The notes beneath the pieces are model-generated. The model ran no database searches. It saw nothing but the letters and a program-made list of their open reading frames with translations, and was not told the DNA's origin. Shown piece by piece: positions 1,907 to 44,499 of a DNA stretch of 64,000 bases. This DNA comes from Sideroxydans sp. (GTDB taxonomy: Bacteria > Pseudomonadota > Gammaproteobacteria > Burkholderiales > Gallionellaceae), in assembly GCA_027310725.1 (NCBI GenBank), contig DAIDAG010000028.1:1-64000 (forward strand). Reading direction: 5' to 3'. The stretch's first letter is position 1; the number at the start of each line of letters is the position of its first letter. Made by a program: the position numbers and the translations under genes.

Positions 1907-1920
1907 GGCAGGTATAATCG

Positions 1921-1948
1921 CGCCCTTCGACAAGCTCAGGGCGAACGG
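1921..1948. repeat. Dispersed palindromic element A, intergenic copy
   Basis: This is a near-perfect copy of element A, CGCCCTTCGACAAGCTCAGG followed by GCGAACGG. Its arms (CGCCCT and AGGGCG) can form a hairpin. It lies in the leader of uppP, directly after a TATAAT box at 1913-1918. If that box is a -10 element, the repeat would be at the 5' end of the uppP mRNA. Related copies are at 41478-41508, 43577-43608 and 44251-44282. Confidence 0.85.
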
Positions 1949-41477: not shown

Positions 41478-41508
41478 CGTTCGCCCCTCGACAGGTTCAG
41501 GGCGAACG
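41478..41508. repeat. Dispersed palindromic element A, intergenic copy
   Basis: A copy of element A (CGTTCGCCCCTCGACAGGTT followed by CAGGGCGAACG) between the DUF971 gene and ubiE. Its arms CGTTCGCCC and GGGCGAACG pair perfectly. It ends 22 bp before the ubiE ATG, so it is in the ubiE leader. Confidence 0.85.
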
Positions 41509-41530
41509 CCGAAATCAAAGGAGCACAATC

Positions 41531-43576: not shown

Positions 43577-43608
43577 CGTTCACCCTTCGACTAGCTCAGG
43601 GCGAACGG
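43577..43608. repeat. Dispersed palindromic element A, intergenic copy
   Basis: CGTTCACCCTTCGACTAGCT followed by CAGGGCGAACGG, between the PhnA-like gene and the cysteine-rich small gene. One arm carries a change (CGTTCACCC) against the other (GGGCGAACG). Confidence 0.8.
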
Positions 43609-43637: not shown

Positions 43638-43832
43638 ATGGGTGGCTGGGGTTGTCCGCACGAGGTCGATGGCAAATGTCAGCGCGTGAACAATATTCCG
43701 TGCGACCTGGGCATGAAGGGTTGCGTGCTGTTCGGACGTTTCCGCTTTGCCGATCCCGGCAAGAACCGGCCCAAAAAGGCACCCGACAATTTGCCCGCCA
43801 AAGCGCCATCCCCGGGCGATGACAAGCGATAG
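43638..43832 (+). CDS. Conserved small cysteine-rich protein (64 aa)
   Basis: It begins MGGWGCPHEVDGKCQRVNNI and has four cysteines in the first half (C6, C14, C22, C29), a likely metal or Fe-S site. A charged Pro/Lys tail follows. I recall similar short proteins in other betaproteobacteria but no function. TGGAG stands seven bases before the ATG. Its last 14 bp overlap the start of the rluA-like gene, so the two are probably cotranslated. Confidence 0.75.
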   Translation: MGGWGCPHEVDGKCQRVNNIPCDLGMKGCVLFGRFRFADPGKNRPKKAPDNLPAKAPSPGDDKR

Positions 43833-44499
43833 TCCTTGCGAACTCATCTACCGCGACGATTCCTTGCTGGTGGTGAACAAGCCAGCCGGTTTGCTGGCCG
43901 TGCCGGGACGCGGCCCGGACAAGCAGGATTGTCTTTCTTCACGACTGCAACGTGAGTTTCCCGATGTGCTGGTTGTGCACAGGCTGGATATGTCGACTTC
44001 CGGCTTGATGGTGTTTGCGCGCGGAGCCAATATGCAGCGCCGGCTGTCGCACCTGTTCCACGAGCGTGAGGTGAAGAAGCGCTATGTGGCTATCGTCGCA
44101 GGCAGGCTGGAACCGGAAACGGGCGAGGTGAACCTGCCCATCATCGCAGATTGGCCGAACCGCCCCTTGCGCAAGATCGATGCTGAACTGGGCAAGCCCT
44201 CACTAACCCGCTACCGGGCTGTGCATGCCGAAGCCCGCGGAATTTCCGAACATTCGCCCTTCGACGGGCTCAGGGCGAACGGTTTTTTTGAGACCACCCG
44301 AGTTGAACTGGAACCCGTGACCGGCCGCACTCATCAGTTGCGTTTGCACATGTCCGCGATCGGCCATCCTATCCTTGGCGATGCGCTCTACGGTGATGAT
44401 GCCGCCGCACCACGCTTGATGTTGCACGCTACCGAGCTGGATTTGTTGCATCCGCTTACCGGTTCGCCCTTGCATTTTGTCAGCCCACCCCCATTTTGA
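43819..44499 (+). CDS. RluA-family pseudouridine synthase with in-frame element A
   Basis: Converts uridine to pseudouridine in RNA. The 226 residues from ATG 43819 have LLVVNKPAGLLAVPGRGPDK, the catalytic block VVHRLDMSTSGLMVFARG (Asp in HRLD) and VELEPVTGRTHQLRLHMSAI with GHPILGDALYG. Short form, without an S4 domain, closest in size to RluA. Between TRYRAVHAE and TRVELEP there are about 12 extra residues (SEHSPFDGLRANGF) encoded by a complete element A (44251-44282). The site is a variable strand-loop, so the enzyme could still fold. The target RNA is unknown. Confidence 0.92.
   Translation: MTSDSPCELIYRDDSLLVVNKPAGLLAVPGRGPDKQDCLSSRLQREFPDVLVVHRLDMSTSGLMVFARGANMQRRLSHLFHEREVKKRYVAIVAGRLEPETGEVNLPIIADWPNRPLRKIDAELGKPSLTRYRAVHAEARGISEHSPFDGLRANGFFETTRVELEPVTGRTHQLRLHMSAIGHPILGDALYGDDAAAPRLMLHATELDLLHPLTGSPLHFVSPPPF
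44251..44282. repeat. Dispersed element A inserted in frame inside the rluA-like gene
   Basis: CATTCGCCCTTCGACGGGCT followed by CAGGGCGAACGG. This is the same 32-bp palindrome as between other genes, read here as HSPFDGLRANG with no stop. Its presence lengthens the enzyme in a loop before the conserved VELEPVTGRTHQ block. Confidence 0.85.

Follow-up and report, generated by a model that had tools for sequence, protein, structure and literature searches.

A small hairpin repeat residing in frame in an rluA-like gene and in other protein-coding genes of the Sideroxydans/Gallionella group

The window analysed here, a stretch of 64,000 nucleotides from Sideroxydans sp. (contig DAIDAG010000028.1), contains a short palindrome, hereafter called element A, that lies both between genes and within an rluA-like gene whose reading frame it leaves uninterrupted. 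This raises the question of how such a sequence came to be part of an enzyme-coding gene, and of whether the same has occurred in other genes and in related genomes. The features of the window that bear on this question are the following.

43819..44499, forward strand: rluA-like pseudouridine synthase gene, 226 amino acids plus stop, intact despite the element
44236..44289, forward strand: 18-codon in-frame insert RGISEHSPFDGLRANGFF relative to orthologues, its placement uncertain by a few codons
44253..44282, forward strand: element A copy inside rluA, with arms at 44253-44260 and 44272-44279, an 11-base loop and a CGG tail
44283..44289, forward strand: run of seven T directly 3' of the element, terminator-like, read as Phe-Phe
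43579..43608, forward strand: intergenic element A copy, found in the related genome G024, altered in G019 and G013, missing in G005 and G028
41480..41509, forward strand: intergenic diverged copy with 3 mismatches to the search pattern
1919..1948, forward strand: intergenic copy without left arm, with 2 mismatches to the search pattern

The product of the gene matches PF00849 along the whole profile (106.8 bits) and resembles E. coli RluA best (2i82; 1.5e-56). The initial annotation, made from the sequence alone, had placed a 32-bp palindrome inside this gene without damage to its frame, and this palindrome is real (44253-44282). The same annotation estimated the gain at about 12 residues. 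This figure has to be corrected, since the alignment of orthologues gives 18 residues (54 nt, about 44236-44289); E. coli RluA shows a gap of 17 residues at this position. Because the insert is longer than the palindrome itself (only 30-32 bp), extra sequence either arrived with the element or arose afterwards. The same insert is found in G024 and G013, which are separate assemblies, and this argues against an artefact of assembly. In the structure predicted by AlphaFold, which is poor for this protein (mean pLDDT 52.5), the insert region (137-156) is located between two predicted strands.

A search pattern built from element A copies matched the window at four positions (1919, 41480, 43579 and 44253) and had no match in 100 shuffles. 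The intergenic copies had been announced at 1921, 41478 and 43577. Copies are indeed present there, starting at 1919, 41480 and 43579, but the first two are diverged and the one at 1919 has no left arm. The idea that the 1919 copy corresponds to an empty site in G024 was dropped, the alignment giving a possible degenerate trace only, and this copy is not used as evidence. At 41480-41509, the loop orientation in the window is, by our reading, opposite to that in G005 and G028, as if the loop had been inverted in place. Translation of the element A consensus leaves five of the six frames open, the lone stop being a TGA in the sixth, exactly as first described. The window gives no match to any Rfam RNA family at the gathering threshold.

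Element A forms a sizeable repeat family. The source genome (G000; 3.03 Mb, 64.8% complete) holds 40 core matches at no more than one mismatch, and the reversed control none. The exact core is found in 47 of the 49 genomes of the same taxonomic family and in 3 of 32 genomes of other families in the order (control 0). At the level of the class, the core occurs in 33 of 370 genomes, source genome counted, the highest copy number in a genome being 51; as 4 of the 370 genomes also give one hit each with the reversed control, single matches in this search may be due to chance, and in several single-match genomes the element has no tail. The named records of the group in which element A lives are titled Sideroxydans and Gallionella, and its occurrence in other families of the class is patchy. 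The class-search consensus is CCCTTCGACARGCTCAGGGCGAACGG (32 copies, 29 loci), with no agreement in the outer left arm. The unit measures about 26-32 bp and encloses a loop of 11-13 bases, TTCGACNNGCTCA. Stem pairs 1-3, the ones adjoining the loop, form in 98, 98 and 89% of 124 distinct copies, and 0 of 2000 shuffles are as good for each, pairs 1 and 2 being partly fixed by the search pattern and pair 3 not. Pairing and covariation of stem pairs 4-9 are not above shuffles in these 124 copies; the rluA copy has 8 stem pairs. The one-sided tail, CGAACGG, is conserved at 83-90% in the same set.

Some copies share more than the element. Five loci (L025, L107, L110, L129 and L133) have a longer stretch in common, in which a GGGCTTCGCCC-type mini-hairpin precedes the element, which hints at larger mobile units, and similar flank ends of type GGACTTAATC.GCGTTTCC are found at L004, L007, L010, L016, L017, L106, L113, L123 and L124. 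A larger element with terminal inverted repeats was suspected from these common contexts; a script searching for whole units found none.

To what extent is the RluA insert shared? Forty-five proteins were aligned, drawn from relatives, named genome contigs and extra stretches (G035, G029 and G074 were left out after failing the motif filter). At consensus position 152, a block is found in 7 of the 45 orthologues and none in the other 38. The 18-residue element A insert is carried by G000, G024 and G013, and in decayed form, still in frame, by G019, where orthology is judged from position and length, both the same, and from an identity of about 69%. In G027 and G001, the place is taken by another, related palindrome (23 and 40 residues), and L063, on a contig titled Gallionella, has a 71-residue composite made, by our reading, of several palindromes. 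Further inserts are located at positions 112-115 (G034 and G001) and at position 190 (G042 and L064); those of G034, G001 and G042 look repeat-like to us. The element A residues are thus confined to the four genes named above and are lacking in E. coli RluA as in the 38 orthologues without a block, which agrees with the lineage-restricted insertion first proposed.

Outside the insert, dN/dS of rluA is 0.15-0.46 in the six pairs formed by the four insert-bearing genes. As judged from these ratios, the enzyme has stayed under purifying selection despite the insert. Within the insert, G000, G024 and G013 differ by 1, 4 and 5 of 54 nt, a rate about equal to or below that seen elsewhere in the gene. 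In G019, 15-18 of the 54 nt of the insert are changed relative to the other three (dN about 0.49), with no indel and with the frame kept; dS of rluA outside the insert in the G019 comparisons is 0.52-0.63, close to this value. The inserted peptide therefore seems free to drift, as in G019, the one lineage on which this reading rests.

In-frame copies of element A are also found in no fewer than eight further genes of the group. A copy was taken as genic when a reading frame with protein-like composition was found on both sides of it. By this measure, the source genome has 3 of 30 examined copies in genes, two of them in a single CusA/CzcA pump gene and the third in rluA. Of 35 copies in G024, at least 8 are genic, distributed over mutS (two), purL, mtnA, rlmM, the pump gene (two) and rluA, six genes in all; G008 has 6 genic copies out of 47, in hscA, mutS (twice), rlmN, rlmM and a nudB-like gene, and G028 has 3 out of 42, in mutS (twice) and hscA. 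Further genic copies, on which the proposal of an element able to survive inside genes depended, thus exist in the source genome itself and in its relatives. It should be noted that this count gave no loci of their own to 10 copies in G000 and 5 in G024 that have one mismatch, one of the latter five lying within L121. The frames dropped were those of L011, L116 and others, for their composition, the opposite-strand shadow frame of L117, L278 (which has no Pfam domain) and its G028 counterpart L313, and L282, whose spanning frame is short. The nudB-like frame (L267), named by our own reading of its sequence, was added by hand, its start being fewer than 30 codons upstream of the copy.

Most of the fetched copies, on which these counts were made, lie outside genes, and all five open frames are used. 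Bacterial coding density is near 85-90%, so that the few genic copies mean a strong under-representation in genes. The commonest frame reads the Pro-Ser-Thr-Gly-rich PSTSSGRT, by our count of the printed peptides, and the fifth (LSLSK) is used solely in mtnA of G013. In the pump gene, G000 and G024 share a pair of copies and differ by an adjoining 66-base in-frame palindromic segment. Three of the host genes, namely rluA, rlmM (L120, L299) and rlmN (L294), code for enzymes of RNA modification.

Comparison of orthologues shows that the same loops recur as places of residence, and not for element A alone. In MtnA, inserts of at least 6 residues are found in 11 of 30 orthologues, all at consensus position 71, and they belong to four families: element A in G024, G005, G029 and G013, and, by our reading, pairs of CGTC-type REPs in G034 and G020, a CCCTAACCC-type palindrome in G015, G011, G031 and G023, and a CCCTCACCCC-type palindrome in G004. 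Among 31 MutS proteins, 14 carry inserts, located at positions 150, 263, 337, 392 and 402 (G028 and G012 failed the motif filter and were left out). Element A occupies position 402 in 10 of the 31; the block at 263 is found in G024 alone and comes from an ABC fusion rather than from a repeat. Some MutS proteins (e.g., G021 and G017; loci L165-L182) have three separate insert blocks at recurring positions among 150, 337, 392 and 402. Nested insertions are also seen, one copy lying inside the loop of an older copy, in frame where genic (mtnA of G029, mutS of G028).

On a tree of 31 genomes, the minimum number of state changes is 8 for the mtnA loop, 5 for the mutS 402 loop and 2 for rluA 152, counts which do not tell gain from loss. 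G024 stands on a long branch of this tree because its mutS ORF begins with the fused ABC-ATPase piece. This ORF of the complete G024 genome (L108/L165; G024:C1:704397-706928) starts with about 211 residues of ABC ATPase and has no MutS N-terminal domains; in G013, the ABC ATPase and mutS pieces are about 2.5 kb apart, and G024 may carry a deletion fusion.

Evidence for turnover of copies comes from two sister species, G008 and G028, whose flanks are mostly 87-99% identical. Against the fetched G028 stretches, 17 of 46 G008 copies had a matching site, 1 matched by one flank only and 28 had none. Twenty-four of these 28 were searched in G028 by their flanks, and 19 could be aligned: 14 of the G028 sites are without a copy, 1 has half a copy and 4 have a copy in some form. 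Copies missing in the sister include genic ones, in rlmN (24 bp, the cleanest case), in the nudB-like gene (21+6 bp) and in rlmM (36 bp), and each of the genic length differences sums to a multiple of three. At L269, L282 and L292, which appear to be intergenic, the same flanks enclose element A in G008 and CGTC-type REPs in G028. A difference of 64 bp seen at L293 is not counted as an insertion, since G028 may have undergone a deletion between short repeats there. Presence and absence in the sister species support copy turnover since their split and, with it, the initial annotation where it saw an active or once active element that creates peptide insertions.

Taken together, these data make it very probable that element A is a small hairpin repeat, mobile or formerly so, that is tolerated in a turn of RluA and in loops of other proteins. 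It would have entered the RluA turn in the common ancestor of G000, G024, G013 and G019, and five open frames, together with a net inserted length that is a multiple of three, would account for the 18 extra residues. Copies would then persist between genes and in the few protein loops that tolerate additional residues, loops that would equally accept other palindromic families. The insert with its frame and distribution, the constraint on the gene and the return to the same loops are directly shown, whereas tolerance as the reason for residence in the loops is what we infer. The insertion itself may be hairpin-based and proceed without a dedicated transposase, in a single-strand or template-switch like manner. 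As neither a mobilising enzyme nor a clear target duplication (by-eye look only) was found, mobility is deduced from presence and absence of copies alone.

Other explanations have to be weighed against this one. Loop length does vary among RluA proteins, and the 18 residues could be an ordinary lineage-specific loop that matches the repeat by chance; however, the contrast between window and shuffles, the residence of the family in at least eight other genes and the sister species without the genic copies largely refute this idea, which can hardly be right. Alternatively, the rluA copy could be kept as an RNA element, the hairpin and the seven T acting as a terminator or attenuator inside the gene. 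In favour of such a role, the rluA copy, just ahead of its T-run, folds at -14.5 kcal/mol (14 of 200 shuffles as good), and the copy at 43579 folds at -14.3 kcal/mol (8 of 200) with five T shortly downstream. Nevertheless, the fold of the G013 copy (L061) does not stand out from shuffles (138 of 200 as good), G019 (L062) has neither hairpin nor T-run and has kept the frame, and a T-run follows few of the 81 listed copies. The rluA copy is also missing from a terminator scan, although the loop limit of 8 used in that scan excludes it. An RNA function is thus very unlikely to explain the retention of the copy.

The remaining alternatives concern the way in which the element moves. Element A could be a conventional REP whose mobilising RAYT (REP-associated tyrosine transposase) went unseen because the genome is incomplete. 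Its hairpin and one-sided tail recall the anatomy of REPs, genes of the Y1_Tnp type (RAYT/IS200 type) are widespread (52 of 81 genomes searched, the source genome being among those searched), and their number shows a weak rank correlation with copy number over the 49 family genomes (rho 0.29, p 0.046). However, no such gene was found in G000 (64.8% complete), and the correlation does not hold in the 32 genomes that are at least 90% complete (rho 0.16, p 0.37). Individual genomes are mismatched as well: G028 (42 copies) and G015 (14 copies) have no Y1_Tnp match, and G016 has four with no core copy. Moreover, none of 30 fetched Y1_Tnp loci, out of many more in the group, holds the element A hairpin, a lone loop-motif match being found in their 91,879 bases. 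We consider mobilisation by a RAYT unlikely. Somewhat less unlikely, though still not favoured, is the view that the loops are mechanistic hot spots, unrelated palindromes with a common insertion route being drawn to these DNA sites, instead of selection leaving their copies there. The four families at one mtnA position, the exchange of element A for CGTC-type REPs at L269, L282 and L292 and the nested insertions in the loops of older copies would all fit. On the other hand, no common target motif is established, coincidences in intergenic regions are expected as both families lie mainly there, and protein tolerance covers the genic cases without any new mechanism. An extension of the same thought, to which we give a similarly low probability, is that unrelated palindromic families share one RAYT-independent, hairpin-driven route that returns repeatedly to the same places, the loops of older copies among them, and would in this way supply housekeeping proteins across the lineage with in-frame linker peptides. 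Tolerance of a small hairpin repeat in protein loops remains the preferred reading.

How does element A compare with known systems? Neither its core DNA strings nor the encoded peptides were found in the open-licence full texts searched, which come without figures and supplements, so that an earlier description is possible; no description of the family in this group was met in the same literature. The initial annotation likened the element to the Rickettsia palindromic elements, and this likeness holds for behaviour and fails for membership. According to the available excerpts of the report on these elements (RPE-1 to RPE-7), they are palindromes of 100-150 bp in Rickettsia and Wolbachia, found both between genes and, in frame, within protein genes, at sites common to orthologues and in solvent-exposed segments of the products (PMC3767692). 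Element A is like them in its in-frame residence in rluA and at least eight other genes, and unlike them in its size (26-32 bp) and its hosts of the Sideroxydans/Gallionella group, the two being compared here by their descriptions.

The GTAG and CGTC REPs are, in the portions of the report consulted, small hairpins found in several species, mostly between genes, sometimes as dimers, and in some cases within genes that they do not break, repair and pseudouridine synthase genes being among these targets (Di Nocera et al., 2013; PMC3733652). As described there, the GTAG superfamily has an unpaired GTAG motif at one end, whereas CGTC REPs, for which no dedicated transposase is reported, have a CGTC-type tag, a stem of 8-9 bp, a loop of 4-5 bp and a CCA tail (PMC3733652). 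Element A has no GTAG in its 124 copies or in the 32-copy consensus and ends instead in the conserved CGAACGG (CCGTTCG on the other strand); it also differs from CGTC REPs by its loop of 11-13 bases, its three covarying stem pairs, its CGAACGG tail and the lack of a CGTC tag. Multicopy families are also described in Geobacter bemidjiensis and G. metallireducens, one Geobacter family occurring in all frames in the part of the report available (PMC2996986), and here too the comparison is by description. Thus, as far as these partial sources go, palindromes resident in genes are a general phenomenon that was already known (PMC3767692, PMC3733652, PMC2996986).

No description was found, within the same partial sources, of a loop shared this clearly by several unrelated families, although the Rickettsia paper raises the possibility (PMC3767692). 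Different RPE groups lie close together in some orthologues, and for some of these elements the excerpts leave open whether repeats of different origin were drawn to such sites as hot spots or a single old insert has diverged there (PMC3767692). With four families of plainly different sequence in one mtnA loop, the empty loop in other species of the group and a sister species lacking individual genic copies, this question becomes answerable. RluA, RlmM, RlmN, MutS, MtnA, PurL and HscA also provide a natural series of tolerated insertions, of use in tracing how enzymes gain loops.
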